DNA from: Paraprevotella sp. | Lineage (GTDB): Bacteria; Bacteroidota; Bacteroidia; Bacteroidales; Bacteroidaceae | Assembly: GCA_017937925.1 (NCBI GenBank) | Contig: JAGBCQ010000012.1 | Coordinates: 248,001-312,000 of the forward strand | DNA length: 64,000 nt | Direction of reading: 5' to 3' | Shown: positions 11,833-44,376 of the stretch, one piece after another | Position numbering within the stretch: position 1 is the stretch's first letter | Layout: each line of letters opens with the position of its first letter | Notes under the pieces: generated by a model | Database searches by the model: none | What the model was told of the DNA's origin: nothing | Seen by the model: the letters and a program-made list of their open reading frames with translations, nothing else | Position numbers and translations under genes: made by a program

Positions 11833-12015
11833 ATGAACATACAAAAACTGAATATAATGATGAAGAAAGAATATAAAAAGCCGGAAGTTCTGGTGCAAGA
11901 ACTTGCCATGCAGCAGATGTTCGCCAGTTCAATAGAGGTAACCGGTCCTGCTGAACCCGGTACCGACGAAGTTGGCGTAAACGCAGAGAATGACTTCAAC
12001 GACCTATTGTGGTAA
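11833..12015 (+). CDS. Small acidic peptide of the KKEY..P/LW family
   Basis: This 60-codon frame starts 7 bases after the large surface-protein gene. A likelier start is the ATG at 11860, giving 51 residues beginning MKKEYKKPEV, which lines up with the paralogue at 44212-44376. Both share KKEY, a Pro three residues later, a hydrophobic stretch ending in Met and Ser, then a 'PG..E', 'NA.N' and terminal 'LLW/ELW' signature. There is no signal peptide or membrane segment, and the C-terminal half is strongly acidic. The function is unknown. The recurrent position as the last gene after giant 'GIYI.NGKK' proteins suggests a partner role, or a ribosomally made peptide precursor; neither is shown. 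Confidence 0.75.
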   Translation: MNIQKLNIMMKKEYKKPEVLVQELAMQQMFASSIEVTGPAEPGTDEVGVNAENDFNDLLW

Positions 12016-12059
12016 ATCATTTATGGGGCTTGTGTCAAACATTCAAACATTGCTATTTT

Positions 12060-12135
12060 GTCATCCCTAAGGAGCAAAGCAACGAGGGATCTCATTGTAA
12101 CAAAGGAGAGATTCTTCACAGCAGTTCAGAATGAC
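12060..12135. repeat. 76-bp intergenic repeat, copy 2
   Basis: The element starts GTCATCC and ends TTCAGAATGAC and is exactly the same length as copy 1 at 5490-5565. The interior shares GAGC(A/G)AAGC and GAGAT blocks but differs by several substitutions and shifts. It lies 45 bases after the small peptide gene. Confidence 0.6.
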
Positions 12136-12191: not shown

Positions 12192-12225
12192 ATCCCCTCA
12201 CCTTTCGCGGTGAGGGGATTTTTAT
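12192..12225 (+). terminator. Rho-independent terminator after the peptide operon
   Basis: ATCCCCTCACC (12192-12202) and GGTGAGGGGAT (12209-12219) form a perfect 11-bp stem with a six-base loop followed by a T-rich run. It ends the 5696-12015 operon. Confidence 0.8.
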
Positions 12226-12563: not shown

Positions 12564-12881
12564 ATGAACAATATATTATCTTTTAATATATCTACTCCTG
12601 ACGATGTCGCCAATCAGATAGCTTCAAGAGTTAAGAGCAGACGTTTGGAGTTGAATCTTACTCAAGAAGGATTTGCCACACGTGCAGGATTAAAGTTCGC
12701 CACATACCGACGATTTGAACAGACCGGCGAAATCTCACTACGAGGTTTACTTCAAATTGGATTTGCATTAAACGCTCTTTCGGACTTTGACGCGCTATTC
12801 ACTCAAGAACAATACCGGTCTATTGATGAAGTGCTGAACAATAAAGCAATAACTAGAAAACGAGGAAAGAAAAATGAATAA
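12564..12881 (+). CDS. hipB: HipB-like XRE-family antitoxin/transcriptional regulator
   Basis: This 105-residue protein has an XRE helix-turn-helix at about residues 18-75 ('VKSRRLELNLTQEGFATRAGLKFATYRRFEQTG'). It overlaps the downstream HipA-like gene by 8 bases, the usual antitoxin-first arrangement. By family, it would neutralise the HipA kinase and repress the operon through a palindrome in the promoter, and such a palindrome overlaps the -7 box upstream. The C-terminal tail is basic ('ITRKRGKKNE'). Confidence 0.8.
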   Translation: MNNILSFNISTPDDVANQIASRVKSRRLELNLTQEGFATRAGLKFATYRRFEQTGEISLRGLLQIGFALNALSDFDALFTQEQYRSIDEVLNNKAITRKRGKKNE

Positions 12882-13965
12882 CATTAAACAGATTGAAGTG
12901 ATATATTACAATCACTTGGTGGGGCGTTTAGCACTGACTAAGGAAGGACTATGCGCTTTTGAATACTCCTCAGAATGGCTTTCATCCGGTTTCTCCATAT
13001 CACCGTTTGAGCTACCTCTCCGAAATGGTGTTTTTATAGCAAAGCCTCACCCTTTTGATGGTGGCTTCGGTGTCTTTAACGATTGTTTGCCGGACGGTTG
13101 GGGACTACTCATTCTTGATAGACACCTGCAACGACAAGGTATCCTGCCACGCACATTAACCATCCTTGACCGTTTGGCTTTAGTTGGCTCTAACGGACGT
13201 GGCGCATTGGAGTTTCGACCGGACAAAAGTGTTATAGGTCCTCAAGAATACGCTGATTTTGAGAATTTGTCATTAGAAGCTGAAAAGATTTTTGATAATG
13301 ACGATTACATGGGGAAAGGCATTGAAGAGTTCCAATATCGTGGAGGCTCACCGGGCGGCGCCCGCCCCAAAATATTCACTCATTATAATGGGAAAGAGTG
13401 GTTAGTAAAATTCCGAGCAAAACATGACCCCAAGAATATAGGAATCAATGAATATAAATACTCCTTACTCGCCAAAAAGTGCGGGATTGAAATGCCCGAG
13501 ACACGGCTCTTTGAGAATAAGTTCTTCGGTGTGGAACGTTTCGACCGCAGTCCCAAAGGGAAACTACACGTGATAAGCATAGCCGGTCTCATCAATGCGG
13601 ATTATCGCATACCATGTATTGACTACACACAAATCTTTCAGGTATGTGCCATACTCACTCACAACATTGCCGAGTTGTGGAAAATATTTCGTTTGATGGT
13701 CTTCAACTATCTGATAGAGAATAAAGACGATCATGCGAAGAATTTCGCCTTTATTTACGACAACGGTGATTGGAGATTCTCTCCTGCTTATGATTTATTA
13801 CCTAGTGACGGCATGAATGGTTTTCATACGACCTCTATCAACAATAGCATTGAACCGACAAAAGAGGACATTATCACTGTAGCGACCAAAGCAGGACTAA
13901 ACAAAAAAGAAGCAGAAAAAACTTTTGAAAATATTCGTGACATTATACAAAAACAGAGTTTTTAG
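12874..13965 (+). CDS. hipA: HipA-family serine/threonine kinase toxin
   Basis: This 363-residue protein has the N-terminal HipA subdomain ('FELPLRNGVF...FGVFNDCLPDGWG') and the C-terminal kinase core. Key motifs are the ATP/phosphate-loop-like 'GGSPGGARPKIF' (about 158-169), the catalytic 'NKDDHAKNFAF' (about 283-293) and the metal-binding 'SPAYDLLPS' (about 302-310), so it looks catalytically intact. It is shorter than E. coli HipA (440). HipA kinases phosphorylate aminoacyl-tRNA synthetases and slow growth. It is notable, but possibly coincidental, that lysS, an aminoacyl-tRNA synthetase gene, is the next gene. Confidence 0.88.
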   Translation: MNNIKQIEVIYYNHLVGRLALTKEGLCAFEYSSEWLSSGFSISPFELPLRNGVFIAKPHPFDGGFGVFNDCLPDGWGLLILDRHLQRQGILPRTLTILDRLALVGSNGRGALEFRPDKSVIGPQEYADFENLSLEAEKIFDNDDYMGKGIEEFQYRGGSPGGARPKIFTHYNGKEWLVKFRAKHDPKNIGINEYKYSLLAKKCGIEMPETRLFENKFFGVERFDRSPKGKLHVISIAGLINADYRIPCIDYTQIFQVCAILTHNIAELWKIFRLMVFNYLIENKDDHAKNFAFIYDNGDWRFSPAYDLLPSDGMNGFHTTSINNSIEPTKEDIITVATKAGLNKKEAEKTFENIRDIIQKQSF

Positions 13966-26050: not shown

Positions 26051-29000
26051 TTATTCTTTGACTACTTTTTGATGATTGACAATATAAATACCTTTCTTTA
26101 AGGTCGGTGGCAAATCTCCGTTATTGTCCGTCATTCCGCACTGCACACCGGAAAGGTTGTATATCGGTTGTTCCTCCTCAAACGCAGAGGTCCGGACATC
26201 CTCTATATCCGTTATCAAACCTAACGAATAAATCTCGAAGTTGTCAAAGCAACACCAGTTGGATGAATGTATGGTCGCCAAATCGCGTAACAAACCGAAC
26301 TTGATGCGTTTCGTATCAACATATATCAACAAGTAATTGGCATAGTTGGTAGCATCGGCAGAGAAGAGCGTATTGGCTGCCGCCATAGTATTGGCAAAGC
26401 CATGAAGATTTCCCGCACCCGTATATGGCAAGTTATACAAAGACTGTACCTCAACCGTATCTTTGTTGGCGAACATCTTATAATTAATCTGTTCAACACC
26501 CTCTTGACAATCGCGCCCTGTATAGTCATTCTCACCATTGCGCTCAAAGGCTTGACATTTTACCAAATAATATCCCTCATCCAAATTTCTTCTGGTCTGT
26601 GTAATAAACGCACTGTAATCCACAGCACGGAATGCAAAGAATTCTGCTACCCCACTGTTATGACCCGTCGTTCCTGACACTAGGGTCCATCCCGTATTGC
26701 TGGTATTGAACGTTCCGTTGGTCACGGTCACTTTCTCGCCTGCTGCTTGTAAAGTTTCGAAATATTGGGTCAACGCAGCCTCAAGCTGGTCGGCTGTTGC
26801 CATCAAGATGGTCGGGTCATTGCTTTCCCTCACTGTCAACGCATTGATAATAGATGTTGTCAACGCACCGTTATTCAAGGCCGCATCCACCACACCTGCT
26901 TTTGTTTCGTCGGTCGAGAAATTGGTTTTCTCTGCCCGATATAAAGATTTCTCATACTGATAACGTGCGCGCAACTGACGGAAATCCTCTTGTAGTGTCT
27001 GCGCCAATGCCTTCAAATCGGTATTCGCCCCATTATCTGTACTGATGTCGGTAACGGCTTTTTGTATGAGTGCGGCGAGTTGCTCACTTTTTACCTTTTC
27101 ATTCAAAGTTGTACCGTCGGCTATCAATGCCTTTAGGTCGCTCCATGCCTGCAAGAGTTGGTATTCCGTTTCATTGATATGCAAGAACGAGCCATGCTGA
27201 GGTGACAAATGTCCTGTCATACTTGGTGATGCCTGTAGGTTGCGCAACATGGCATCGGCTGTCTTGAAATGATAACCCACATCGCCACTATAATTTACAT
27301 AACCGATGTTCCATACGTCATCATTGATACGACGGAACACACTGGAAGCCTCAAACCCACCCACATGGACAAACGAAGAAACAGGAGCGCTCCATACGGG
27401 ATTCAAAAGATCCTTAGTAGTAATATCCTGAATGGTTCCTGCCTCATAATCGCGGTAAGACATGTGCCACAAACTGTCTGTCTCCAAGAATACAAGGTCG
27501 GCATCCAGCACGTTGTTCACCTTGTTTGCTCCATACAACATTTGGAACGATTCGATACCTGTAAAATCCTCGTTGGCCTTAGATATATAGAAATGGTCAC
27601 AATCGCCATTGTCGGTATTTCCCACTGCATAATATATATAAGGTGTACCGTCGATGAACGTAATCTGAGGCGCCCACACACGACTCACCTTATTGGCGGT
27701 CAGTAATGCTGTTCCCGCATTATTATAGATGTCCTTCGGTGGATTGGCGGTCAAATACTTTTTCAAGTCACAACGGGTATAGGTCCAATTGATCATGTCA
27801 TAACTCTTGAACATACCAATGGAATAGTTCCACAACATACTCGTTCCATTATCGAGCGACCCATAAAGGTCGGTCGTAACGATATAATAACAACCACGCT
27901 TTTTATCCTTGGCCATAAAAGCGTCACGACACCACGGCAACTTTGTACCGATGCCGTCAATGATGGCAGAGCCTCTATTCAATTCGTTAAACACCAAACC
28001 TTTATCTTCCTCTTTTCCTAAAGCATAAGTAATGGTTTGCGAAACCAATGTACCGACTCCTGTTTGAGGTACCAAATTCGGCATGTGACAATACAAATAA
28101 CCGTATGCATTGTCGTCGGGAGCGACTCGAACCGTCAAAGGTTTTTCAAACAAGGGGTATTCATTCCCATCGTAAGTAATCGTACCTTGCAATGTTCCGA
28201 CTTCTGTCAGAGTTTCACCACGTTCTGTGACTGTAAACACCCCTTCATCAAAATTCAACCGTCCTTTTCCTTTTGGTTCATCAAATGGGATATAACTCCA
28301 TTCTACCTCCCCATAGGAACACGTTGTCGGTAGGCGTAATTCATTATGTATAAAGGTAGCGGCCTGAGACAAAATCAAATCCTCACGGTCTATCCTGAGC
28401 GCATTGGCAATATCCATCACCAATGATTGTGATTGGGGACGCGCCTCGTAAAGGGCTGTTACTTGTTCAGCCGTTAAAGCACTATCGTAAACCTTAAAGT
28501 TATCCATCAGCGTGTTAATCATATAAGCATCGCCACTGAACGGAGAACGTCCTAAATAATTACCGGTAAGCGTTGCTGCAAAATCAGAGGGTTTCAATGT
28601 TAGCGATGCCGTTCCTTTTGCCACTCCATCCAAATAGAATGTTGCGACACCGGAGGCTTGTGTCACCGTGATAGTATGCCATTCATCAGTAATCAGTCCA
28701 CTTCCGGAACGAACACTTTGGGCTGTTCCGTCTTTTATTTCATAATACCAATTAGCATTCCCGGCTGCATTGACCATACCTAAATACGTGCCTGTACCAT
28801 TGGTAAAAGCCCATGCCCATGAGAACCGGTTGAGGGCATTGACAGCATCAACGCAAAGATCTATACTTATAGTATAATCTCCTGTCAAACGACTCAAAAC
28901 GCCACTGCCTACACTCGTACCTAATTCCAGATAACCATTTTTATTACCGGTGGACAACACACGATTACCGTCATCGGTAGGCAACACCATCGCATTGTTG

Positions 29001-29155
29001 TGCAAAGTATAAGGATAGTTTCCACTTTCATCAACCGCCTCTGTCTGTTCGAACGTATATGATAAAATAGGGGTCACTTCTTGCGCCTTTGCGACAATAG
29101 ATAATGATGAAATAACAAGGGCAACGAGGCCCATCATCCAATTTTTGTTTTTCAT
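26051..29155 (-). CDS. Secreted multidomain protein: LamG-like plus GH43-like beta-propeller
   Basis: This 1034-residue protein has a signal peptide ending 'SIVAKAQ'. A LamG/concanavalin-like domain spans about 28-240 ('YTISIDLCVD...EWHTITVTQASGVATFYLDG...YLGRSPFSGD'). A five-bladed beta-propeller resembling glycoside hydrolase family 43 spans about 385-640, with 'CRDAFMAKDKKRGCYYIVTTD', 'WAPQITFIDGTPYIYYAVG' and 'DADLVFLETDSLWHMSYRDYE'. It is followed by an alpha-helical spacer, a carbohydrate-binding-like module (about 805-970) and a C-terminal 'IYNLSGVQ...KKGIYIVNHQKVVKE' tail. A role in plant or host glycan breakdown is likely. The catalytic Asp/Glu set cannot be confirmed by eye, and the exact specificity is unknown. 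It is a stand-alone gene, not in a SusCD cluster. Confidence 0.78.
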   Translation of the reverse strand: MKNKNWMMGLVALVISSLSIVAKAQEVTPILSYTFEQTEAVDESGNYPYTLHNNAMVLPTDDGNRVLSTGNKNGYLELGTSVGSGVLSRLTGDYTISIDLCVDAVNALNRFSWAWAFTNGTGTYLGMVNAAGNANWYYEIKDGTAQSVRSGSGLITDEWHTITVTQASGVATFYLDGVAKGTASLTLKPSDFAATLTGNYLGRSPFSGDAYMINTLMDNFKVYDSALTAEQVTALYEARPQSQSLVMDIANALRIDREDLILSQAATFIHNELRLPTTCSYGEVEWSYIPFDEPKGKGRLNFDEGVFTVTERGETLTEVGTLQGTITYDGNEYPLFEKPLTVRVAPDDNAYGYLYCHMPNLVPQTGVGTLVSQTITYALGKEEDKGLVFNELNRGSAIIDGIGTKLPWCRDAFMAKDKKRGCYYIVTTDLYGSLDNGTSMLWNYSIGMFKSYDMINWTYTRCDLKKYLTANPPKDIYNNAGTALLTANKVSRVWAPQITFIDGTPYIYYAVGNTDNGDCDHFYISKANEDFTGIESFQMLYGANKVNNVLDADLVFLETDSLWHMSYRDYEAGTIQDITTKDLLNPVWSAPVSSFVHVGGFEASSVFRRINDDVWNIGYVNYSGDVGYHFKTADAMLRNLQASPSMTGHLSPQHGSFLHINETEYQLLQAWSDLKALIADGTTLNEKVKSEQLAALIQKAVTDISTDNGANTDLKALAQTLQEDFRQLRARYQYEKSLYRAEKTNFSTDETKAGVVDAALNNGALTTSIINALTVRESNDPTILMATADQLEAALTQYFETLQAAGEKVTVTNGTFNTSNTGWTLVSGTTGHNSGVAEFFAFRAVDYSAFITQTRRNLDEGYYLVKCQAFERNGENDYTGRDCQEGVEQINYKMFANKDTVEVQSLYNLPYTGAGNLHGFANTMAAANTLFSADATNYANYLLIYVDTKRIKFGLLRDLATIHSSNWCCFDNFEIYSLGLITDIEDVRTSAFEEEQPIYNLSGVQCGMTDNNGDLPPTLKKGIYIVNHQKVVKE

Positions 29156-31326: not shown

Positions 31327-34300
31327 ATGAAACAAAAATTAAGACTTTGCCATTGGGTGATTCTATCCGTTGGGATGTGGTTTTGGATGGGAATACAAGC
31401 CAAAGCACAAGAATCTACATTCGTTTTCGAAGCCACCAATGCAGGTGATTTTGCAGTTGCCCATTCGGGTACGGATTTCAGTACATACGAGCAGACAACG
31501 CTCAAGGTTACCGGTCCGCTCAACGGCGATGACATCAACCGTATAAGGAATGCGGTAAGCACTCACTTTACGGAATTGGACCTCGGCGAGGCGAAGATTA
31601 CGTCCGAAGGACAGTATACCGGCAACAACAACACTTACGAAATGCAGGAAGACACTATCGGACAATATATGTTTTCGCGCCTTGCGAATTTGAACCACAT
31701 TGTTTTTCCTGCAGGGCTCAAGTGCATTGGCAATTATGCTTTCTATTGTCCTTCCTCTCCTAGTTGTCTGTTGTCGGTTGAATTGCCGGCTTCTGTCAGA
31801 TCCATCGGACAGATGGCATTCAGTTACAACCGCTTGACAGAAGGTGTGACCTTGAACGAAGGATTGGAAAAAATAGGATCTAGTGCTTTCGCTTATTCCA
31901 CATTGAAGTCTATCGAAATCCCCGGCAGTGTCACTTCTGCAGACGGAGCATTAAACTCAGCAAGTTCCCTTTCTGCCGTCACAATAGGTATGAAGAAGGT
32001 GCCGGGAAATCTAATTTCAAGCAGTGTATCATCCGGTGGTTCTGTCGTTACGGCGATATTTACCGAGGGAGTGGAAGAAATCGGCGACGAACTGTTCTAT
32101 AAAAGTTCTGCAAATTACAACCCTCTCAGCAGTGTCACTTTCCCATCGACGCTTAAGAAAATCGGTTCCAAAGCATTCAGCCACGCAGGTAAGTTGACCA
32201 ACATCGTGCTGCCGGCTTCATTGGACACCATCGGGGCCGGAGCTTTTGAATATTGCCAATTTGCGGAGCTACAACTTCCTTCCGGTTTAAAATACATCGG
32301 AGAAGAAGCATTCAGTAACAGTGCACTTACCCATATAACCATTCCCGACTCTGTGGAATACATTGGGGAAAGAGCTTGGTATTATTGTAGAAATCTGACT
32401 ACTATCACATTGTCTAAATCTCTTGAAAATATACCATCTCAACTTTTTTATAACTGTAGCAATCTGACTACTGTGAATTTGGGTGAACTCACCCAACTGG
32501 AATCCATTGGTGCATACGCCTTTTATAATTGTACTGCCCTTACAGGCATAGAGTTACCGAGCAACCTGTCTTCCATCCAATCAAATGCATTCTATAATTG
32601 CAGCAACATCACTTCTATTGTCATACCAGATGGAGTGACATTGTTAGGGGATGGCGCATTCGGCCATTGCAGCAGCATGGAACAAGTAACTTTGCCTTCT
32701 GCTTTGAACAGCATCAGCAATAACACGTTTTATTATTGTTCCAAACTTTCGTCCATCAATCTGCCTGAAAACCTTACTTCAATAGGGAGCAGCGCATTCA
32801 GTAACACAGCCCTGACTTCTGTTGACATTCCGGACAATGTCACAACTATAGGCAACAGCGCATTCGCAAGTTGCAGCAAATTGAATAGTGTAAACCTTCC
32901 TGCCGGATTACAAGAAATATTGGCAAGTACATTCAAAGGTTGTTCCTCGCTGTCTGCCATAGAGATACCGGCTTCGGTGACAAGTATCGGCAACCAAGCA
33001 TTTCAAAATTGCGACAAATTGTTACCCACCTTTGCTTCTGGTTCACAACTCCGGTCCATTGGCTACAACGCTTTTTATAATTGCTACACAATGACCGGCA
33101 TTGCCCTCCCGAATACGGTGGAGGAAATCGGCTCAAGTGCTTTTTCGGCTTGTAATGCACTGAAGACCGCCAATCTGCCAACTTCTTTGAAAGCAATACC
33201 GGAAGGGATGTTCTCCAGTTGCAGCCAACTAAGCAACATAACTATCCCTGCATCAGTAAAGTCCTTAGGTGCCAATGCGTTTAATGGTTGTAGCACTATC
33301 ACAGAAATGGCAATACCGGAAGGTATCACCGCTTTACCTGATGGATTCTTCAAAAACTGTTACAAATTATCAAGTGTCACCCTGCCTTCCACACTCACCT
33401 CTATTGGTAATAGTACATTCATGGGTTGTACAGCATTGGAGACAATTGATTTGCCTGACAACCTGACAACGATAGGTGACAATGCTTTCAGAGGTTGTAG
33501 CATGTTGCATGAATTAGAATTATCAAACAATATAACATCAATAGGTAATAGTGCGTTCAGAAATTGTAGTGCATTGGTCAGCATCATCCTTTCCGAAGGC
33601 TGGACCAGTATACCCAACGAATTGTTCTATGGTTGTACATCACTGCAACACGTGACTTTGCCGAATGGAATTACCGCATTACCGGCATATCTGTTCTATG
33701 GTTGTACATCCTTGCAGTCAGTTGACATGCGTGATGGCATTATCTCCTTCGGTTCATACTGTTTCAGCGGATGTACTTCGTTAAGGGATTTTGACCTCCC
33801 TTCATCATTGAAGACCATCAATGATAACGTTTTCCAGAATTGTGCTACACTAACCCGTATGAACATACCGGAGGGAGCAACCAACATCGGCAAATATGCT
33901 TTTGAAGGTTGTATCAATTTGACGAGTGCCACTTTACCGTCAACACTCACATCGGTAGGCACTTATGCGTTCTCTGAATGCAGTTCTTTGACAAACGCAC
34001 AACTACCGGAGAGTATTAAGATTATACCAAGCCACCTTTTCTCTAATTGTAAAGCACTGAAAACAGTCACTGCAGCAAGTGATTTAACGGGAGTCGGTTC
34101 TTACGCATTCTATAATTGTGCTGAGCTTGAGTCCTTCAACATCCCTGCTACCGTAACAAATATTGAGGGGCATGCATTCTATGGATGTAGTTCAATATAT
34201 GGATTAGATCTTCCTGTGGCTTTGACTAATCTTGGTCAAGGCGCATTCTATGGCTGCGCAAAGTTGGATAGTCTGACCATACCTCAGGGTATCACCTCTG

Positions 34301-36360
34301 TACCTTCATCGCTATGCCAAAATTGTTCATCCATGGTATACGTCGGATTCGCATCAGAAGTGACGGAAATAAACAGCAAGGCTTTTTCGGGTTGTATTTC
34401 ATTGAAGGATATTGAATTGACGGAGGGACTGAAGACCATTGCATACGATGCCTTCAGATACACAGCACTCAGCGACGTAAAATTGCCATCAACAGTAACA
34501 AGTCTTTCATCCAATTCATTTGGAGACTGCGACAACATCATAACTTTCAGAGTCAACGAGGGATGTACGTCCATCTGTACAACAGGTTCACCTTCAGCAT
34601 GGAATGGATGCGACAACCTGACGGTACTTTATCTGCCTTCCACCGTGACAAACATGTATTACGCCACATTCACTGACATTCCTAATATCAAGGAAGTACA
34701 CATCAAGGCGACAACTCCGCCGTCGCCTGCAGTGGGTAGTTATAATTTCGGAAAATCAGGTTGTACCTTGTATGTTCCGGAAGGCTGTGCTGCAACCTAT
34801 AAGGCACACAACTACTGGAATAACCGTTGGGATGCCATTGTAGAAGAGGCGTATGGACTGGCTTCCATCTCGGACGAAGAATGGAACATTCTGAAACAAC
34901 TCCCTACCCTCACCGGTGGCGAGAACTGGACAAGAAAATGGGCGTTGGGTGCTACGAAAGCAGAAACAGAACTGCCCGAGGGAGTGACCGTCAGCAACGG
35001 ACACGTAGTGAGCCTCAGCCTCTGTGGTAACAACCTCACGGGACGCATACCGTACGTTGTCTTCGGTATGCCTTATTTAAGAAGTCTTGACTTGTCGGGC
35101 AACCGACTCAGCGGTGACATTGGCGCTGACGATCCTACACAAATCGTTATTTGCGACTCAGTACGCATGCTGGACATTTCGAGCAACCAACTCACAGGCG
35201 ACCTTTACGATGTGATGACATTTGCTCCGAATCTGACCATGTTGTATGCCAACAAGAACAAGATACGCGACATCAGTCAGCCATTACCTGTTTACACTCT
35301 TGAATACTATGGTCAGGACTTGACCGATAGTTATACGGTGAACTACTCAGAGTTCTTCAACCTGAAAGGAGATGCTCAGACTGCTGTGCCTACTATCCTT
35401 ACCTACAACAACAAACAGAACAGTACCGAGTCTGAGAATATAGACGGCTACAACACTTACATGTATGTTTATTTGTCGGATGTTGGTATCAAGACATCCG
35501 GAAACAACTGGTATATGACGTTGAACCAAAGACTGACAAGCAACAGCACTACGAGTTATTACTCTTACGAATCATGGTGTGATGGGTGGTATACCTATCC
35601 GTCGGGTACAACCATGCCTGCCGGTATAGGAAGTTCTTATTGGGACGAACGTCACAAATTCAATATCGTGATGGACTATGCCATGGGGGATGTAAACTTT
35701 GATACTCAGGTGGACGTGTCGGACATGCAGAGGACACTGAACACCGCACTGGACGAAACTTATTACAGCAGATATTCTCCTTTCAACTTCTATGCAGCAA
35801 ACATTATCGCGACTGACGCTATCATCAACGTGCAGGATGTGGTGGCAAACATCAACCTCATCCTCAACCAAGAAGTGCCGGTTGCCATGAAGCGCAACAT
35901 GAAGCGCAACAGCGAAGAGGAACAAACGGTTGAAGCAGCGTTGTATGTGGAGAACGGACAACTGATTTTGAACACATCGCGCCCCATCGCAGCCCTTGAT
36001 ATCTGCCTGACAGACCGCAATGTTAAATGGTCGTCTGCCATGAACCTGTTCAGCAAGTCTGAACGCAACGGACGCACCATCTTCTACTCTATGTTCGGAG
36101 ATGAACTGCCTGCCGGTGTAACCGTACTGGCAGAGACCAACGGACAACTGACCAATGCCATGCTTGTGGACCTTGATGCCAATAAGGTAGCCGTACGTTT
36201 GGAAAAGGGAGATCTGAACAGCATTGAGAATCTACCGGTTGACACGAACCACAACGATGCCATCTACGACCTGCAAGGCCGCCGTTACGACAAGACAATG
36301 CGCCGCCATTTGCAACCCGGCATCTACATCATCAATGGTAAAAAAGTGGCCATTCAATAA
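31327..36360 (+). CDS. BspA-like leucine-rich repeat surface protein with dockerin-like module
   Basis: This 1677-residue protein has a signal peptide ending 'IQAKAQ'. From about residue 95 to 1150 it consists of some 45 tandem LRR_5 (BspA/Treponema-type) repeats of about 23 residues, with the theme 'L..I.LP..LTSIG..AF..C..'. A plant-type LRR patch follows at about 1235-1320 ('LDLSGNRLSGDIG'). At about 1453-1520 two calcium-loop-like segments, 'GDVNFDTQVDVSDMQ' and 'IIATDAIINVQDVVANINLIL', form a dockerin type I-like module. The last 40 residues end 'IYDLQGRR...GIYIINGKKVAIQ'. BspA-like proteins bind host matrix proteins or other bacteria. The next gene starts 43 bases downstream and encodes a protein with a cohesin-like N-terminus. 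Confidence 0.88.
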   Translation: MKQKLRLCHWVILSVGMWFWMGIQAKAQESTFVFEATNAGDFAVAHSGTDFSTYEQTTLKVTGPLNGDDINRIRNAVSTHFTELDLGEAKITSEGQYTGNNNTYEMQEDTIGQYMFSRLANLNHIVFPAGLKCIGNYAFYCPSSPSCLLSVELPASVRSIGQMAFSYNRLTEGVTLNEGLEKIGSSAFAYSTLKSIEIPGSVTSADGALNSASSLSAVTIGMKKVPGNLISSSVSSGGSVVTAIFTEGVEEIGDELFYKSSANYNPLSSVTFPSTLKKIGSKAFSHAGKLTNIVLPASLDTIGAGAFEYCQFAELQLPSGLKYIGEEAFSNSALTHITIPDSVEYIGERAWYYCRNLTTITLSKSLENIPSQLFYNCSNLTTVNLGELTQLESIGAYAFYNCTALTGIELPSNLSSIQSNAFYNCSNITSIVIPDGVTLLGDGAFGHCSSMEQVTLPSALNSISNNTFYYCSKLSSINLPENLTSIGSSAFSNTALTSVDIPDNVTTIGNSAFASCSKLNSVNLPAGLQEILASTFKGCSSLSAIEIPASVTSIGNQAFQNCDKLLPTFASGSQLRSIGYNAFYNCYTMTGIALPNTVEEIGSSAFSACNALKTANLPTSLKAIPEGMFSSCSQLSNITIPASVKSLGANAFNGCSTITEMAIPEGITALPDGFFKNCYKLSSVTLPSTLTSIGNSTFMGCTALETIDLPDNLTTIGDNAFRGCSMLHELELSNNITSIGNSAFRNCSALVSIILSEGWTSIPNELFYGCTSLQHVTLPNGITALPAYLFYGCTSLQSVDMRDGIISFGSYCFSGCTSLRDFDLPSSLKTINDNVFQNCATLTRMNIPEGATNIGKYAFEGCINLTSATLPSTLTSVGTYAFSECSSLTNAQLPESIKIIPSHLFSNCKALKTVTAASDLTGVGSYAFYNCAELESFNIPATVTNIEGHAFYGCSSIYGLDLPVALTNLGQGAFYGCAKLDSLTIPQGITSVPSSLCQNCSSMVYVGFASEVTEINSKAFSGCISLKDIELTEGLKTIAYDAFRYTALSDVKLPSTVTSLSSNSFGDCDNIITFRVNEGCTSICTTGSPSAWNGCDNLTVLYLPSTVTNMYYATFTDIPNIKEVHIKATTPPSPAVGSYNFGKSGCTLYVPEGCAATYKAHNYWNNRWDAIVEEAYGLASISDEEWNILKQLPTLTGGENWTRKWALGATKAETELPEGVTVSNGHVVSLSLCGNNLTGRIPYVVFGMPYLRSLDLSGNRLSGDIGADDPTQIVICDSVRMLDISSNQLTGDLYDVMTFAPNLTMLYANKNKIRDISQPLPVYTLEYYGQDLTDSYTVNYSEFFNLKGDAQTAVPTILTYNNKQNSTESENIDGYNTYMYVYLSDVGIKTSGNNWYMTLNQRLTSNSTTSYYSYESWCDGWYTYPSGTTMPAGIGSSYWDERHKFNIVMDYAMGDVNFDTQVDVSDMQRTLNTALDETYYSRYSPFNFYAANIIATDAIINVQDVVANINLILNQEVPVAMKRNMKRNSEEEQTVEAALYVENGQLILNTSRPIAALDICLTDRNVKWSSAMNLFSKSERNGRTIFYSMFGDELPAGVTVLAETNGQLTNAMLVDLDANKVAVRLEKGDLNSIENLPVDTNHNDAIYDLQGRRYDKTMRRHLQPGIYIINGKKVAIQ

Positions 36361-36403: not shown

Positions 36404-39400
36404 ATGAAACAGTTCAAATTACTTAGGCTCATGGCAGTGATGTTGCTGCTGTCCCTAAAAGCAACGGCGCAAGACGTGAACAAGTTCTACCCGGGCAACG
36501 TGAGTTGCATGAAGGGGTTGTCCATCGACTTGCCACTCTACATGGAGAACACGAACCCCAACATCGTGGCACTGCAGTTTGACATTGTCACTCCGCAAGG
36601 AGCAACGTTGTCCACTTCAAGTTCAGAAAACAAGGTGGATGCCACACGTACAGTGGATCACCGCATCAACATCCGCAAATTGTCAACTTCGGGCGACAAT
36701 CGCTATCGCCTCATTCTGCTCTCGCCCACCAACAAACCTTTCAGGGCCAACAAAGGCATATTGGGAACGGTAAAGATGACGATTGCCGACGCAGCGGCAT
36801 TGGAAGAAGAAGAGACCTATCCGCTTACGGTATCGAGCGTCATCCTCAGCGACTCGTTGGGTAACAACGTGATGACCGCCTATGAAAACGGCTCTTTGAA
36901 CATTGGTGCCAACCCCGACTTCGTGGTGGAAAACGTACGCCTTACCGGCAATACTACCGTCAATCCGAAGGACTCCATTGCTATTACATGGAGCGTCAGA
37001 AACAGCGGTTCGGCAGCCGCCAATGGGGGATTCCGCGAAAGTGTCCATCTGGTTTCTACCACTACCGGCGAACAAATCAATTTGGGAACGGTGTACCACA
37101 ACAATGTGATACTCGCAAGTGGAGCAACACATAATGTGACGTCAAAATTCCTCGTGCCCCGCATTGTGGGATTGGACGGATTGTTCCGCATCAAGGTGAC
37201 ACTCACCCCCAATAGCGATTCAGGTGAGCGCAAGGAATACCAATCCAACAACACCACCCTCAGCAGCGAGTCCGAGAACTACACGATGAACAAAGTGCTG
37301 TACCTCACTCAACGCGATGCCATCACCGAAACTGATGCCTCCAGCCGTTATGCCTACTATGTGGAGCGAAGCGGTAGTCGCGCAGAGGAAATGACATTCC
37401 CCGTCACATTGACAGGAGGTGACTCACGCCTATCACTCAGTGCCAATGAGATTATCCTCAAGAAAAACAGTTATTCGGAATATGTATACCTCTATGTAGC
37501 AGGAAATAATTCTCTTGAGGGGGACGTAAACTTCACCGTCGGCATACCGGCCACTCATAACTATCAGGCATTGGAACGCCCCGGAAAGCTCATTGACGAT
37601 GAAATTCCCGATCTGAAAATTGCACCCTCACAAGAATCAATCACCGAGGGCAGCATCTTCTCTTTTACCGTTACAGCATCTCGCGCTGCAGAGGAAGATG
37701 TGACCATCCGATTGGGCAACAATGCCACCACTCGTTTCGGTATTCCATCGTCTATCATACTGCCGAAAGGAGAATGTTCGGTCGATGTAGAGGTGCAAGC
37801 TTACGATGACAATGATGTACAGGAGGAATATACTTACGTTTTGTTCCATGCATCGGCAGACAACTACGGAAGTGGCGATTGCACCATTGAATTGGTGGAC
37901 AACGACATGCCGCAGTTGACACTGGACATGACACCCGATATCATCAGCGAAAGTGCCGGTCCTCGCGCCATCAGCGCATGTCTGAGACGAGACGTAGCAC
38001 ACTCCGGTTCCAAACTGACGGTGAAAGTCACCACAACCAATGAAAGCCGCTTGTACAGCAACACCAAGACCATCACCATGAACCCGGGTGTACAAGAAGC
38101 GAATTTCTCTTTCGCAGCAGTGGACAATGCCTTGAAGGACGGCGACGAAGACATTACCGTTACAGCTACCGTCTATATTTCTTCCTGCCGTTGCTCAGCC
38201 AACGGCTCATTGGGAGGTATGGTAATCAAAAACGTAACAATTCTAGACAACGATGGTCCTGCCATCACATTGGAAGCTGCCAAGAGCAACATGCTGGAAG
38301 GCAGTACAAACAACAAATTCACGGTGAAACGCAACGACAGTCCGACAAACAGTCTGACCGTAGCGCTCTCCTCTACCGGCAGCGACCTCGTGTTCCCTTC
38401 CACGGTCACCATTCCTGCCGGGCAGACATCGGCTGACTTCTATGTGGAACTGCAACGCAACAGCATACAGGGAGATTCACGCACCATCACCTTCACAGCC
38501 GAAACCAACGGCTACGCCAAAGGTACCTGCTGGGTGATGTCGACCGACCAAACCCTGCCTGATGTTTATGCTTACGGCGTGACTGTAAGCGGTGATGTGT
38601 ACGCCACTCTTGAATCGGACGTATCGCTGACGGTTCGCAACATCGGTTATGACGTACTGCCGGCCAAGACTCCTGTAGTGCTGACTTGTGGGGCGAACAG
38701 AGTCAAGACTGTGCTGTATACAGAAAACGACATCGCCGCAGGAGACGAAGCCACAGTCAGTGGGAAAATAATCCTTTCCGATGCCGCAGGAACATTCAAA
38801 TTGAGCGCTACGGTCAATGACGACCGCGGAGTGAAGGAACTGAACTATTCGGACAACACATCGGAACAGATTGATTTAGTCGTCAATCCGCTCATCAGCG
38901 CCACCAGCGTAAGCACAAACAAAGCTGTATACGCTACCGGAGAGAAGGTGATCATCACCGGAAAGACAACAGGTATGGTCTTCCGTGAGGCAGACATTGA
39001 GGTCTATCTTGTCAATGGCGGCAACAGATATACTGTAAACGGAAAGACAGACAGTAACGGTGAATTTGAAGTGGAGTGGGCTCCTGCCGGCAACGTAGCA
39101 GGTGTGTTCAGCGTAGGTGCGTGTATGCCAAAAGAGAACCTTAAGAAGGAGTACACCAGCATCGGCATCTATGGTTTACGCCGTGCTTCAACAAAATATC
39201 TGACTCATGAGTTTAAAGTTTCTGAGGTGAAGGAAGGATTCATTGATGTTTACAACCACGGTAATGCTAAACTTACTGACATTACTGTCGAGGCCATCGA
39301 TATGCCGGACAATATCACTTGCGAATTTGAAGGACTGGCAACATTGGCTGCCGGTACTACAGGACGCATCGTCTACAGAATGACCGGTCTGGAAGCGTCG

Positions 39401-42400
39401 AAATCGTATGACGCTTGGCAGATTTTCAAGGCGCACATTACCTCGGCCGAGGGAGCTGTGCTTGATGTTCCTCTCCATTATGCTGTATACAAGAGTATCC
39501 CACAACTTAAGGCAAGCACAAATACCATCAACACCACCATGATAATGGACACTGTGCGTTACCATGAGTTCACCATCCGCAACGAAGGACTGCTGGAAAC
39601 CGGTGCAATCAATGTGGACTTGGGCGACATCTACTGGTTGTCTACTGCCACGCCCCAAAAGATGGCTTCGCTCAAAACCGGCGAAGAGGCTACGGTAGTA
39701 CTGCAATTTAAACCAGACGAACGTACCCCGCTGAACAGCATCTACACCGGTAACATCTATTTGGCGTGTGAGAACGGCGGTGGAGTATCGGTCAATCTGA
39801 AAGTGGAATGTGTATCTGATAAAACCGGAACATTGGTGATTGACGTATGGGATGAGTTTACCGCCAACACTCCTAAAGCGCCTCATGTAGAAGGAGCTAC
39901 GGTAAACTTATTGCATCCTGTAACACAGAAACTGATGCGTCAATATGTGACAGGTGCCGACGGACTTGCCACGTTCGACGAACTGCCTGAAGGAAAGTAC
40001 CTCGTAAAGGTGACACACCCGAAACACTCATCATGGTCGCAGAACATCATCGTGAGTCCGGGACGCGAGACACGTCAACGCGCTTTCATACAGTATAGCG
40101 CTGTGACAATCAAGATGGAGTATGTGAAGACTGAGATTGAGGACGAGTACGACATCGTGACTACGGTGACATACGAAACTCACGTTCCTAAACCGGTCGT
40201 ACTGTTAGACATACCTAAGAAACTCATTCTTGACTCGATTCAGACTCCTTATGTATTCTATGCTACAATGACAAATGTGGGCTTGATTACAGCGAAAGAC
40301 GCAACTTTCGAAATGAATGGAGAGCATAACGGATATATGTTTACGCCGCTCATCGAAGGTCCATGGCAGATTCTGCCTAAACAGTCGATTGTTATTCCTG
40401 TGGAAATCACAAAAATTGGTGATGTAGCAGAAGTAAGCCCCAACCTGGCCCGTGTTAAGAAACGCGCAAGTGCTTTTGAATGCGGAAAAGAGGCTTTGGG
40501 TAACTTCTTCCATGATTGTGGTGCAAGCGGCGGACCTCTCTCTAGCAACCATATAAAAGCTTCGATGCAGACCAGCGACGCTTGCAATTATATGTCTAGC
40601 GGTGGAGGTGGAGGTAGCAGTGATGACACTACAGCCGGTGCGCCTTCAGGAGGAGGTGATGGGTCGTCAATGCAATCCAGTAGTGGTGGTAACACTTCTT
40701 CAGGAGGCAATTTCAGTTATGTTTCTTGCGACCCTGACCTCAAATGCTGCGGCGAGGATTATATTGATGAGCTCACCGGCATCAGTGGCGGTAAGGATGC
40801 AGCAAAAGCTATTCCCGGTCTTCTTCCGCCATGTTCAAAGGCTCATTGTATGCAACATGTCAAAAGCGCAATGAAACGCATAGTGCTCAGGAATTCAAGT
40901 GAGGCAGTGGAAGTGGACTGGGAGGCACTTGACAGTTTGGATTTGTCTGAACAAATGAAAGTGTATCGTTCAATGACAGAATTCCTGAATGGGGTATATG
41001 CCGACGACAGAGAGGCAAAACCTGTAACATCGGACATGGTGGAGGAAATTAAGCACAATTTATCCTTGCCTGACGGACAGCCTTCATATCTCAAAGCGGC
41101 ATACATCGCTATGGCTCCGGCTATAGATTACTCTTATCACTCAAAACTATATGTACACCACGTTCTTGGCAGTTGGGATTTGCCAACTTGCGAATATGAA
41201 GAGATAAAGAAATTGGTGGAAACCATACGAATGAATGTGAACCTCAGCGATGACGAGATGCAGGGAATGAAGCCTGCAGCCTTGACTGATGAGCAGTATG
41301 AGGCGCTGTTGGTGCGCCTGGAAGGGGATGTGCTTGACTATGACTTCCTTGACGAATGTGCACAGCGCATGAGCAAGGACGTGATGGCGGCACAGCGAAA
41401 AGGCTATGCGAGTCTGGACGAAATGACAAAAACGGAGGCTGACAAGGCTGTGGAACAGATGCAGGATGGAGTGAACTCTGTTTGTGCAACGGTGAAATTG
41501 GAAATCGGCCAGCGCATGACCATGACGCGTGAGGCAGTGCGAGGCATCCTGACAGTAGAAAACGGCTCTACATCGGCGGCAATGAGAAATATTCGCCTCA
41601 ACTTCGTGGTAACCGACCCATACGGCAATGTTGCCACATCGCGCATCATGGAAATCCACACAGAGAGCAAGACCGGATTTACCGGAGCAGACGACTACGA
41701 AAGCGGATGGGATTTGGCTGCCGGCGCCAAGGGCGTGGCAAACTTCCTGTTCATCCCGACGAAGTATGCCGCTCCAACAGTGCCGTTGCAGTATACGTTT
41801 GCCGGAACCATCACGTTCATTGACCCGTTCACCGGATTGGAGATGACTCGTGAGTTGGAAACTGAGCGCCTGACAGTGAATCCAAGTCCGAACCTTGAAT
41901 TGGTTTACTTCATGCAACGTGACATTCTCGGTGACGACCCATTAACAGAAGAGGTGGAACCAATGGTGCCATCGCAGTTCTCACTTCTGATCAACAACCA
42001 CGGTTATGGCGATGCTACAAAAGTGAAGATGGTAACCCAACAACCTAAAATTGTTGAAAACGAAAAGGGACTTCTCGTTGACTTTGAAATCCTGAGTTCA
42101 CAACTGAACGGTGGAGAGAAAACATTGGCAATGGGTACAGCAGTAGCTACCGACTTCGGTACCATCCCCGCTCAATCGCACGTTTATGCTCAGTGGTGGA
42201 TGACCAGTACGCTGACGGGACACTTCACCAGTTACGATGTCAAGGCCAACCATGTAACCTCATTTGATAATCCCGACTTGTCGTTGCTCGATTCTGTACA
42301 CATCCATGAACTGATTCATCAAGTGGAAATTCCGGGTGCGAACACCACCCCACCGCTCATCGGTTTCATGGCAAACGACACAGAAGATACCTATGACTAC

Positions 42401-44215
42401 CCCGACAAACTATATATGTCAAACGGAACAGTGCACGACATCTACGAGGCAGAGAGTGTGTCTTTGAAGATGAACAGTTCAACTGAATATGTGCTCACCG
42501 TAGGTAGCAGTGCGACAGGATGGAATTATGGCAACATTGCCGACCCTACCGGCGGACGTAGAAAACTGCAAAGCGTGGTGCGCAAGAGCGACGGCGCCAA
42601 CATCCCACTCGCCAATTTCTGGCTGACGGACAGAACATTGGTGGACAAGGGAGAACCGGTATACGAGAACCTGTTGCACTTTGCAGACTCTATGTCCATC
42701 CATGGCGAAACTTACACGTTGACATTCGAGGAACGACCGGCTATGGAACTCGAAGTCAGGGAGTACTCCGGTATCAATCAGGAAACCACATTCATTCGTG
42801 AGAAGATAGACACTGTGACTGTGGCGTTCAATAAACCTATTGACGAAGCAACATTTACTATTGACGACCTTTCATTGATGTTCGAAGGCGAATACCAAGA
42901 CCTTTCAACTGTAGAAATCGTCAGAGTGAACGACCAGACCTACAAGATTGCCATCGGACAACTAACCGACTTAGACGGATTATACAGCCTGACCGTACAA
43001 ACAACTACCATCAACGATACCGAAGGATTCTACGGAACTGCTAGCAAGATGGCAAGTTGGATTCAAGTAAGCGATGGTATGGCTAACCTCACTATGGAAG
43101 TTTCTCCTGAAGGTGCCGGTATCGTCACTCCGGGCAACAGCAAGCAACCATTCGATGGTGATGTGGCTTTGACTGCTACTCCTAACGAGGGATACAAGTT
43201 CTTGCAGTGGGTATGTGAAGAAGAGATTCTCAGCGAAGAACCGAACTACACCTTCCACATGTACGGCAAGAAGACGGTAAAAGCTGTATTCTCTCCTATA
43301 TTATATAATGTAACCATCAACTGCGACGAGGAACGCGGTACCGTGACAGGTGGAAGTACCGGCCCATACGGATACAACGAGGTATTGACGCTCAAGGCTA
43401 CTGCCAACAGCGGTTACTTCTTCGCCGGGTGGAAGAAGGATGATGTTATCATCTCTTACGACGAAGAAATTATAGTGACCATCGCAAGCGAAGTGACTTA
43501 CACCGCATGCTTTGAACCTCTTGAATTGGTGACAGTTACGCTGGACGAGAACGCATCAGACAACACCTCCATCTTTGAGAATACTTACGGAAAACGTTAT
43601 GAAATCACGCTCAACCGTAAACTCAGCGCATGGCAGTGGAACACCTTCTGCGTACCGTTTGATATCTCCGAACAACAGATCAACAAGACTTGGGGCTATG
43701 CCACCAGCATTGTGGAACTGACTGAAGTGAAGAATGGAACATTGATCTTTGACGGTGTATACAACATCAAGGCAGGTGTGCCCTACCTCATCAAACCGGA
43801 ACGCACTGTCACGGCACCATCGTTCACGTTCAACAACGATATCAACGTGAGCCTGACACCGCGCGAAGAACAAATCTCGATGGACGGATATGACTACGTA
43901 GGTATCTACTCGCCACATGCATGGAGCAACATCCGTAGCGAGTACTACTACGGAGTGAAGGCGGGCAACATCATCAAGGCGAAGCCGACCACTGCCCCAC
44001 TCAAGGGAATGAGAGGCTATTTCCTTGTGCCCGAAGGTATGCCGGTGAATATCCGCATCTTTGAAGATATTACCGACATGGGCGACAGCATTGATGAGCA
44101 ACCCATTGAAGATATACGAATTTACAACATGCTGGGTATCTACCTCGGAAACGATGTGGAGCGACTCGCACCCGGTATTTATATTATTAACGGAGAAAAG
44201 ACTATTATCAGATGA
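36404..44215 (+). CDS. Giant secreted adhesin-like multidomain protein
   Basis: This 2603-residue protein has a signal peptide ending 'LKATAQ'. Residues about 25-170 look cohesin-like ('G..IDLPLYMENTNPNIVALQFDIVTPQG ... GILGTVKMTIAD ... GSLNIG'). CARDB-like domains follow at about 172-300 and 722-830. Three or four Calx-beta repeats lie at about 385-720, each ending 'VDND' or 'LDND'. A SpaA/CarboxypepD-like domain is at about 1141-1220, a Gly/Ser linker at about 1397-1440 followed by Cys-containing 'CDPDLKCCGEDY', and a helical region to about 1640. Two InlB B-type (Listeria-Bacteroides) repeats are at about 2225-2370 ('GYKFLQWVCEEE', 'GYFFAGWKKDD'), and the tail ends 'GIYIINGEKTIIR'. No catalytic domain is recognised. 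It is probably a surface adhesin or scaffold co-expressed with the preceding LRR protein. Confidence 0.8.
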   Translation: MKQFKLLRLMAVMLLLSLKATAQDVNKFYPGNVSCMKGLSIDLPLYMENTNPNIVALQFDIVTPQGATLSTSSSENKVDATRTVDHRINIRKLSTSGDNRYRLILLSPTNKPFRANKGILGTVKMTIADAAALEEEETYPLTVSSVILSDSLGNNVMTAYENGSLNIGANPDFVVENVRLTGNTTVNPKDSIAITWSVRNSGSAAANGGFRESVHLVSTTTGEQINLGTVYHNNVILASGATHNVTSKFLVPRIVGLDGLFRIKVTLTPNSDSGERKEYQSNNTTLSSESENYTMNKVLYLTQRDAITETDASSRYAYYVERSGSRAEEMTFPVTLTGGDSRLSLSANEIILKKNSYSEYVYLYVAGNNSLEGDVNFTVGIPATHNYQALERPGKLIDDEIPDLKIAPSQESITEGSIFSFTVTASRAAEEDVTIRLGNNATTRFGIPSSIILPKGECSVDVEVQAYDDNDVQEEYTYVLFHASADNYGSGDCTIELVDNDMPQLTLDMTPDIISESAGPRAISACLRRDVAHSGSKLTVKVTTTNESRLYSNTKTITMNPGVQEANFSFAAVDNALKDGDEDITVTATVYISSCRCSANGSLGGMVIKNVTILDNDGPAITLEAAKSNMLEGSTNNKFTVKRNDSPTNSLTVALSSTGSDLVFPSTVTIPAGQTSADFYVELQRNSIQGDSRTITFTAETNGYAKGTCWVMSTDQTLPDVYAYGVTVSGDVYATLESDVSLTVRNIGYDVLPAKTPVVLTCGANRVKTVLYTENDIAAGDEATVSGKIILSDAAGTFKLSATVNDDRGVKELNYSDNTSEQIDLVVNPLISATSVSTNKAVYATGEKVIITGKTTGMVFREADIEVYLVNGGNRYTVNGKTDSNGEFEVEWAPAGNVAGVFSVGACMPKENLKKEYTSIGIYGLRRASTKYLTHEFKVSEVKEGFIDVYNHGNAKLTDITVEAIDMPDNITCEFEGLATLAAGTTGRIVYRMTGLEASKSYDAWQIFKAHITSAEGAVLDVPLHYAVYKSIPQLKASTNTINTTMIMDTVRYHEFTIRNEGLLETGAINVDLGDIYWLSTATPQKMASLKTGEEATVVLQFKPDERTPLNSIYTGNIYLACENGGGVSVNLKVECVSDKTGTLVIDVWDEFTANTPKAPHVEGATVNLLHPVTQKLMRQYVTGADGLATFDELPEGKYLVKVTHPKHSSWSQNIIVSPGRETRQRAFIQYSAVTIKMEYVKTEIEDEYDIVTTVTYETHVPKPVVLLDIPKKLILDSIQTPYVFYATMTNVGLITAKDATFEMNGEHNGYMFTPLIEGPWQILPKQSIVIPVEITKIGDVAEVSPNLARVKKRASAFECGKEALGNFFHDCGASGGPLSSNHIKASMQTSDACNYMSSGGGGGSSDDTTAGAPSGGGDGSSMQSSSGGNTSSGGNFSYVSCDPDLKCCGEDYIDELTGISGGKDAAKAIPGLLPPCSKAHCMQHVKSAMKRIVLRNSSEAVEVDWEALDSLDLSEQMKVYRSMTEFLNGVYADDREAKPVTSDMVEEIKHNLSLPDGQPSYLKAAYIAMAPAIDYSYHSKLYVHHVLGSWDLPTCEYEEIKKLVETIRMNVNLSDDEMQGMKPAALTDEQYEALLVRLEGDVLDYDFLDECAQRMSKDVMAAQRKGYASLDEMTKTEADKAVEQMQDGVNSVCATVKLEIGQRMTMTREAVRGILTVENGSTSAAMRNIRLNFVVTDPYGNVATSRIMEIHTESKTGFTGADDYESGWDLAAGAKGVANFLFIPTKYAAPTVPLQYTFAGTITFIDPFTGLEMTRELETERLTVNPSPNLELVYFMQRDILGDDPLTEEVEPMVPSQFSLLINNHGYGDATKVKMVTQQPKIVENEKGLLVDFEILSSQLNGGEKTLAMGTAVATDFGTIPAQSHVYAQWWMTSTLTGHFTSYDVKANHVTSFDNPDLSLLDSVHIHELIHQVEIPGANTTPPLIGFMANDTEDTYDYPDKLYMSNGTVHDIYEAESVSLKMNSSTEYVLTVGSSATGWNYGNIADPTGGRRKLQSVVRKSDGANIPLANFWLTDRTLVDKGEPVYENLLHFADSMSIHGETYTLTFEERPAMELEVREYSGINQETTFIREKIDTVTVAFNKPIDEATFTIDDLSLMFEGEYQDLSTVEIVRVNDQTYKIAIGQLTDLDGLYSLTVQTTTINDTEGFYGTASKMASWIQVSDGMANLTMEVSPEGAGIVTPGNSKQPFDGDVALTATPNEGYKFLQWVCEEEILSEEPNYTFHMYGKKTVKAVFSPILYNVTINCDEERGTVTGGSTGPYGYNEVLTLKATANSGYFFAGWKKDDVIISYDEEIIVTIASEVTYTACFEPLELVTVTLDENASDNTSIFENTYGKRYEITLNRKLSAWQWNTFCVPFDISEQQINKTWGYATSIVELTEVKNGTLIFDGVYNIKAGVPYLIKPERTVTAPSFTFNNDINVSLTPREEQISMDGYDYVGIYSPHAWSNIRSEYYYGVKAGNIIKAKPTTAPLKGMRGYFLVPEGMPVNIRIFEDITDMGDSIDEQPIEDIRIYNMLGIYLGNDVERLAPGIYIINGEKTIIR

Positions 44216-44376
44216 AAAAGAAAGAATATATAATACCGCAAATAGTTGTCATGGAGATGGCGGACGACATCATGGTGCTTTCCGCATCGGATATCCCCGT
44301 TGGTGAGAATCCGGACCCCGGATATGAGGAAGACCCCAATGCGATAAATAAAGACATGAATTGGGAGTTATGGTAA
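44212..44376 (+). CDS. Small acidic peptide of the KKEY..P/LW family, second copy
   Basis: This 54-residue peptide starts at an ATGA overlap with the giant gene's stop codon, which implies translational coupling. It begins MKKKEYIIPQ, has a hydrophobic middle with Met and Ser residues, then an acidic 'DPGYEEDPNAI' stretch, and ends in 'NWELW'. It aligns with the peptide at 11833-12015 through KKEY, Pro, 'PG..E', 'NA' and final LW, although the preceding genes are different. There is no secretion signal. A terminator follows 17 bases after the stop, so the operon ends here. The function is unknown. Confidence 0.8.
   Translation: MKKKEYIIPQIVVMEMADDIMVLSASDIPVGENPDPGYEEDPNAINKDMNWELW

Follow-up and report, generated by a model that had tools for sequence, protein, structure and literature searches.

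Why do two operons for giant secreted proteins in a Paraprevotella genome each end in a gene for a small acidic peptide? The question is raised by a 64,000-nt stretch of Paraprevotella sp. DNA (assembly GCA_017937925.1, contig JAGBCQ010000012.1, positions 248,001 to 312,000), hereafter the window, in which the two peptides are encoded on the forward strand at 11833..12015 (peptide 1) and 44212..44376 (peptide 2). An earlier reading of these letters, made from the sequence only, had offered three roles: a chaperone, a secretion helper, or a precursor peptide whose N-terminal part is a leader. A conserved leader-type motif, co-occurrence with maturation enzymes, and clustering with them favour the precursor role, and the two helper roles are disfavoured. 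We put at about three in four the probability that the peptides are precursors of ribosomally synthesized and post-translationally modified peptides (RiPPs) of the linear polyphosphorylated peptide (LPP) type, which a single operon would mature in trans and which would be expressed together with surface proteins; their phosphorylation and cleavage, like any function, are putative.

Both peptides, found where the sequence-only reading had placed them, are real genes under purifying selection. A profile built from 35 of 47 aligned homologues, with this genome and the near relative G003 excluded, was run against all 1072 open reading frames (ORFs) of the window and matched exactly two, peptide 1 (E 7.2e-12) and peptide 2 (E 2e-7), while reversed ORFs gave a best value of 0.83; the likeness of the two thus exceeds chance. 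A direct protein search of the genome with peptide 2 returned peptide 1 at E 0.013 only. Over ten chosen pairs of similar peptides, one of them identical, pN/pS was 0.27 overall (0.37 for the leader part, 0.21 for the rest), which points to selection at the protein level. Peptide 1 reads MKKEYKKPEV...MFASS followed by an acidic part with an LLW end (60 residues if counted from 11833), and peptide 2 reads MKKKEYIIPQIVV...MVLSAS followed by an acidic part with a WELW end (54 residues). Members of the family usually begin with MKK or MEKK, so peptide 1 probably starts at 11860 (MKKEY), which leaves 34 nt behind the preceding gene and not the 7 reported earlier; the ATGA overlap between the start of peptide 2 and the preceding stop codon stands. 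A 'PG..E...NA' segment, once proposed as a common feature, is not family-wide: the C-terminal half varies while keeping an acidic character, and 134 of 156 distinct peptides have a Trp among the last eight residues. Behind the peptides, where terminators had been placed, lie terminator-like hairpins with T-runs, one at 12192..12219 (+), from a hairpin scan in which shuffled sequences average 0.9 such sites, and one at about 44395..44424 (+), which is absent from the pattern-scan list and was found by folding energy (-24.4 kcal/mol, z -7.1). Searches of the peptides themselves gave no match above cut-off in Pfam or NCBIfam, a plasmid search returned nothing relevant, and AlphaFold2 yielded no fold (mean pLDDT 68.7, above 80 for the first 20 residues only; pTM 0.20).

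The peptides are tied to genes of secreted proteins. Peptide 1 stands directly behind a gene for a giant secreted protein of 1572 aa (7107..11825, +), and peptide 2 behind one of 2603 aa with CARDB and InlB-type repeats (36404..44215, +). As had been noticed, both proteins carry a related short C-terminal tail (KAGIYIVNGKKMVIK and LAPGIYIINGEKTIIR), here assigned to the type IX secretion system (T9SS) type. Peptide matches occur in all 18 Paraprevotella genomes searched (160 in total, E up to 1), with 5 to 19 precursors per genome in 12 genomes. From these, 79 distinct peptides were read, with E < 1 and a YxxP-type motif, from the best loci and from stretches picked down the list, and 74 of them lie behind a T9SS-tail gene: 73 start no more than 100 nt past the end of a GIYI/GVNI-type tail gene, and in the 74th (L014) the preceding tail frame is broken by a stop. 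The 74 gene-to-peptide distances listed, including one dockerin-like case, have a median of 25 nt and extremes of -4 and 80 nt. For five peptides no tail gene stands immediately before them: L038 lies at a contig end, L042 and L077 have no likely gene close upstream, a heavy-metal-domain-like gene (by eye) lies 189 nt from L059, and at L070 a dockerin-like-repeat gene sits between the T9SS-tail gene and the peptide. Outside Paraprevotella but within the family, 24 of 28 peptides follow a T9SS-type tail within 253 nt (one by eye), the exceptions being L141 (contig end), L150, L153 and L166; L165, with no readable peptide ORF, was left out of this count. A profile search, proposed in the sequence-only reading as a check, has thus shown the tie to be real. 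Where several tail genes share a stretch of 7-20 kb (L067, L068, L069), each is followed by its own peptide, and these peptides are very similar (MKKTYQKP...NVWE).

The tails themselves look like T9SS signals. Weak matches were obtained to TIGR04183 for 14 of 28 (best 2e-4) and to PF18962 for 6 of 28 (best 0.0027), and the tail of the 7107..11825 protein alone gave no NCBIfam match. A tail profile matches structures of gingipain C-terminal domains (CTDs) at E 0.025, and AlphaFold2 models of a cargo tail are confident over about the last 25-30 residues only. The genome itself encodes SprA (SprA_N, E 8e-230), the sole T9SS component searched and the one by which the T9SS status of all genomes was judged. 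The closest parallel is provided by the short CTDs of Prevotella intermedia (PMC11969387), which share with the tails seen here their shortness, an invariant Gly, a GxY or GxN motif, and a basic end. That study covers cargo only, and neither 'downstream' nor 'small protein' appears in the accessible parts of its text.

The conserved half of the peptides, KKxYxxPxV...M[LIMF][AC]xS, looks like a RiPP leader. In the 47 aligned homologues the Tyr and Pro are invariant, and the Lys, Ser and Trp are present in at least 90%. Among the 156 distinct peptides, for whose choice [YF]xxP was required, the residue at Tyr+19 is Ser in 130, that at +16 is L/I/M/F in 151, and that at +17 is A/C in 121; position Tyr+5 is Val in 51 and mostly another hydrophobic residue in the rest. 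In the PDB the peptide profile finds a single match, a weak one, to the TfuA lasso leader in a crystal structure with its RiPP recognition element (RRE; 6jx3, E 0.43). The 47 peptides weakly match five NCBIfam families (best E 0.021), of which four are RiPP precursors. These hints led to a search for an RRE in the genomes.

Indeed, PF05402, the PqqD family, scores over its cut-off in 15 of the 18 Paraprevotella genomes and gives some match in all 11 of the more complete ones. In the genome of the window, the PqqD protein (PF05402, 3e-15; best PDB match TfuB1, E 2e-4) is encoded by the last gene of an operon at C25:13704-15330 (L204), preceded by genes for an HprK-like kinase and a signal-peptidase-like protease. 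The same three-gene order was found in seven of seven other loci fetched from the genus (8/8 with its own), and the set recurs at each of the 30 top-ranking kinase loci from the family search and at 78 of the 80 best of the genome contig scan. At order level, all three genes lie within short flanks in three of nine kinase loci, and all three are present in five of seven kinase regions that were read more widely (L345, L346, L348, L349, L350). Invariant residues in all eight genus loci fit the presumed functions. The kinase retains H142, K163, D182 and D183, which we equate with the His-Lys-Asp-Asp motif of PMC9266682, as well as GKSGTGKST, its Pfam and NCBIfam similarity to PEPCK/HprK-related families being weak and below cut-offs. 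The peptidase (NCBIfam sigpep_I_bact 3e-5, sigpep_I_arch 1.5e-4, Pfam S26 1.4e-4, all below cut-off) retains S35, H73 and D88, with a later Asp at the expected catalytic place in seven of eight; PDB searches with kinase and peptidase returned no useful match. In the RRE protein, Asn35 and Asp73 are invariant and are equated here with N33 and D70 of LppB.

This combination resembles LPP, known from the lppAKBSDN cluster of Paenibacillus alginolyticus, which encodes a signal-peptidase-I-like peptidase (archaeal type, Ser-His-Asp), a discrete RRE, an HprK-like kinase, a nucleoside triphosphate transferase and an MsbA-like exporter (Popov et al., 2026; PMC13381572). Its precursors carry YxxPxVLxHQxIxFETxxS; the kinase adds several phosphates to core Ser3, and the peptidase cuts after T-1 in a reaction that requires the RRE (PMC13381572). 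Shared with the Paraprevotella system are the YxxPxV leader, with a conserved Ser 18 residues past the Tyr in LPP and usually 19 here, the discrete PqqD-type RRE, the HprK-like kinase, and the signal-peptidase-I-like leader peptidase with Ser and His; versions clustered in other genomes add the PF14907 nucleotidyltransferase and an ABC exporter, and capsule loci (by eye) in four of eight clusters from SprA-less genomes. The differences lie in the host, a member of the Bacteroidota, in the leader end, M[LIMF][AC]xS here but FETxxS in LPP, and in the layout, the Paraprevotella precursors being scattered, mostly behind T9SS cargo, with the three-gene operon elsewhere. LPP was called restricted to Bacillota; 'Bacteroid' is absent from the main text, and some non-Bacillota hits appear in the network of that study (PMC13381572). 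If the precursor reading is right, the system may belong to LPP proper or to a sister class. Another relation, the HPr-rel-A system (TIGR04352/TIGR04353), likewise pairs an HprK-related kinase with a PqqD-family protein, but the proteins here score far under its cut-offs (17.0 of 200 and 20.4 of 35 bits). Among the open-access papers listed by literature searches, none was seen to describe such peptides behind T9SS cargo; in the parts available, a RiPP survey of Bacteroidales (PMC10352776) contains neither 'signal peptidase' nor 'YxxP', and two RRE papers (PMC12710340, PMC7470986) neither 'Bacteroid' nor 'kinase'.

By analogy with LPP, the N-terminal half (KKxYxxPxV...) would serve as a leader bound by the small PqqD-family RRE, the HprK-like kinase would phosphorylate the conserved Ser, usually 19 residues past the Tyr, and a soluble signal-peptidase-like Ser/His protease would cut just before that Ser, near the hydrophobic-[AC]-x-Ser motif. 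It is this analogy that places the predicted cut just before [AC]xS and makes that Ser the likely phosphate site; binding, phosphorylation and cleavage we infer from LPP biochemistry. Cleavage would free an acidic product some 30 residues long, in most cases with a Trp close to its end. The operon at C25 would act in trans on roughly a dozen precursors scattered over the genome, each usually the next gene after a T9SS cargo gene, so that peptide and surface protein would be made together. Export of the peptide and a role at the surface are guesses. The PF14907 gene of this genome (L352:8448-9575) and that of another Paraprevotella genome (L353:7376-8497) share a neighbourhood with cytidylyltransferase and CDP-alcohol phosphatidyltransferase genes (by eye), a possible source of further decoration of the phosphopeptide.

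Lasso peptides invite a similar interpretation. The leader is of YxxP type, the PqqD protein lies nearest to lasso models (lasso_PqqD_Strm 5e-8, below cut-off; TfuB1), and a kinase and a nucleotidyltransferase also accompany phosphorylated lasso peptides (PMC9266682). Paeninodin-type clusters (PadeA/K/B1/B2/C), in particular, combine an RRE protein, a [YW]xxP-type leader and an HprK-like kinase. The leader here is YxxP, however, not WxxP, the peptidase is signal-peptidase-like and hence of another type, and neither cyclase (C) nor B2 protease is seen beside the operon. Pfam found no macrolactam synthetase C or transglutaminase-like B2 among the five L204 proteins and four L259 neighbours, the rest of the genome being unsearched, and none was recognised by eye in the ORF lists of L242-L249 and L345-L351. 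Lasso precursors are therefore very unlikely.

Genome-wide co-occurrence also supports LPP-type precursors. In a family sample of 151 genomes, made up of those at least 90% complete and the genome of the window, candidate precursors were detected in 117, with 1 to 24 in each. Peptide and kinase occur together in 114 of the 151, peptide only in 3, kinase only in 12, and neither in 22 (Fisher 6e-15, a value that, like all those below, ignores shared ancestry). The link holds within SprA-positive genomes (100/2/4/6; 2e-6) and within SprA-negative ones (14/1/8/16; 2e-4), and an order sample of 198 genomes gave 7/1/22/168 (5e-6). Peptide presence thus tracks the maturation machinery with SprA status fixed.

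These counts bear equally on the proposed helper, in which the small protein would stay unprocessed and act as a dedicated cytoplasmic chaperone or secretion factor for T9SS cargo. The position of 74 of the 79 genus peptides behind cargo genes would be expected of such a helper, and peptide and SprA do correlate in the family sample (102/15/10/24 for both, peptide only, SprA only and neither; p 2e-10), also among the kinase-bearing genomes (100/14/4/8; p 8e-5). That last effect is, however, expected as well if cargo operons are the main site of precursors. Relatives of the peptides occur in SprA-less genomes, many before fimbrillin-like genes, and six of the eight SprA-positive genomes that lack the kinase also lack peptides. 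Most cargo genes have no peptide. The window's own genome contains 12 peptides at E <= 0.01, 11 behind a tail gene and one (L042) not, and among 20 matches there to a strict tail pattern, 6 have a peptide next and 14 have none. Moreover, no signal peptide is apparent by eye, yet the cargo is handled in the periplasm and outer membrane. Because relatives occur without SprA and peptides follow the machinery at fixed T9SS status, we consider a helper unlikely.

Genomes without SprA provide a physical link between precursors and enzymes. Fifteen such genomes carry peptides, of which 12 were searched and 11 counted, with three unread; G221 was set aside, its peptides lying behind tails like those of SprA-positive genomes. 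The 11 contain 34 peptides, and for 12 of these, in six genomes, a kinase gene is found no more than 20 kb away, against 0.54 expected; several of the 12 belong to a single cluster and so do not count independently, while one (G311), in a long frame with a stop, is doubtful. Eight regions chosen for closeness of peptide and kinase (L242-L249) contain a PqqD gene in seven and a signal-peptidase-like gene in four, with PF14907 in three of three scanned and an ABC exporter (ABC_tran) in three of three proteins scanned. Clustering extends to other families. In G032 (L345), peptide, kinase, peptidase, PqqD, nucleotidyltransferase-like and exporter-like genes (the last two by eye) follow one another on one strand, and a second peptide, 12 kb away, lies behind a gene with a T9SS-like tail (by eye), so that one genome holds both contexts.

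Several observations accompany these loci. In L242-L249, peptides often directly precede genes for large lipoproteins that read as fimbrillin-like, and three of these lipoproteins gave no fimbrillin match when scanned with Pfam; Wza/Wzc-like capsule export genes lie in four of the regions (by eye). G066, from another family, has a dozen peptide matches (among them L103, L111, L114, L116, L118, L121, L123, L125, L127), with many paralogues of the form KKKYVKPDFEVI..L..LL..S that are not behind T9SS-tail genes, and one cluster (L346) of kinase, peptidase, PqqD and an apparent nucleotidyltransferase and exporter. A cis-acting leader peptide or attenuator was considered and dropped, because the position in the operon varies, peptides ending operons here and beginning fimbrillin-like loci, and because selection acts on the protein.

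A number of points weigh against LPP-type precursors. Direct matches of the peptides to RiPP leaders are weak, and peptide 2 departs from the usual spacing, with Ser at Tyr+18 and +20 and not at +19. Between orthologues, constraint on the presumed variable core is no weaker than on the leader (pN/pS 0.21 against 0.37), unlike what a fast-evolving bacteriocin would show. Kinase was not detected in 3 of the 117 peptide-bearing family genomes or in one of eight in the order sample, and 12 family genomes have the kinase with no peptide detected; the peptide profile was derived from Paraprevotella, so distant precursors are missed. Of the 34 SprA-less peptides, 22 are not near a kinase gene, and no PqqD gene was seen in two of the seven widely read order-level regions (L347, L351). 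The PF14907 nucleotidyltransferase, found in 14 of the 18 Paraprevotella genomes and not found in four (two of the 11 best), does not adjoin the operon in the window's genome but lies elsewhere (C20); no N or D gene was seen beside the Paraprevotella operon, and an exporter was not searched for across the genus.

In the window's genome, moreover, no precursor adjoins the kinase-peptidase-RRE operon. Together with Fisher tests that ignore phylogeny, this would suit unprocessed regulatory small proteins with which the operon co-varies through shared ancestry only. The physical clustering in other genera and families (12/34 within 20 kb; contiguous at L345) and a leader-type motif with a conserved Ser speak against this possibility, which we judge quite improbable. 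RiPPs are often antagonistic, and genomes hold many divergent paralogues of the peptides, which would suit small toxins, immunity proteins or bacteriocin-like peptides riding on surface-protein operons. No transporter or immunity gene was noticed beside the two window peptides, however, both halves are under purifying selection, and the tie to cargo genes would go unexplained; such a role appears extremely unlikely.

Other genes of the window complete the picture of the two operons. A calcineurin-like phosphoesterase gene (5696..7087, +) ends 19 nt before the 7107 gene and, judging by this spacing, is probably co-transcribed with it. By the same token, a gene for a BspA-type leucine-rich-repeat protein (31327..36360, +), 43 nt before the 36404 gene, is probably the first of the peptide 2 operon. 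This protein is one of two further window products with the same tail, the other being a LamG and GH43 domain protein encoded on the minus strand (26051-29155), with no peptide behind its gene. Past the terminator of peptide 1, a HipA-type kinase gene and a small preceding gene (12564-13965, +) resemble a HipBA toxin-antitoxin pair.

What, then, would such peptides do for Paraprevotella? One tentative proposal, which we hold clearly less likely than not, is a cargo-coupled RiPP system in Paraprevotella and related gut bacteria. Directly behind the gene of each of a dozen or so T9SS surface proteins would lie the precursor of a phosphopeptide of its own, a single operon would mature all of these in trans, and every finished peptide would act with its partner at the cell surface, for example by decorating the glycan anchor or the protein. 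If true, LPP-type systems would extend beyond Bacillota, and RiPPs would be directly linked to the T9SS. The role of LPPs was reported as unknown in 2026 (PMC13381572); if the precursor reading is right, gut Bacteroidota commonly carry LPPs or a sister class of them, and many T9SS cargo operons gain an unexpected component. In Paraprevotella clara, deletion mutants showed that two T9SS-dependent proteins are needed for degradation of host trypsin (PMC9477747). The purpose of LPPs would then be addressable in an organism whose T9SS-dependent proteins have a known effect, and the most interesting question raised is why the precursors ride on surface-protein operons.

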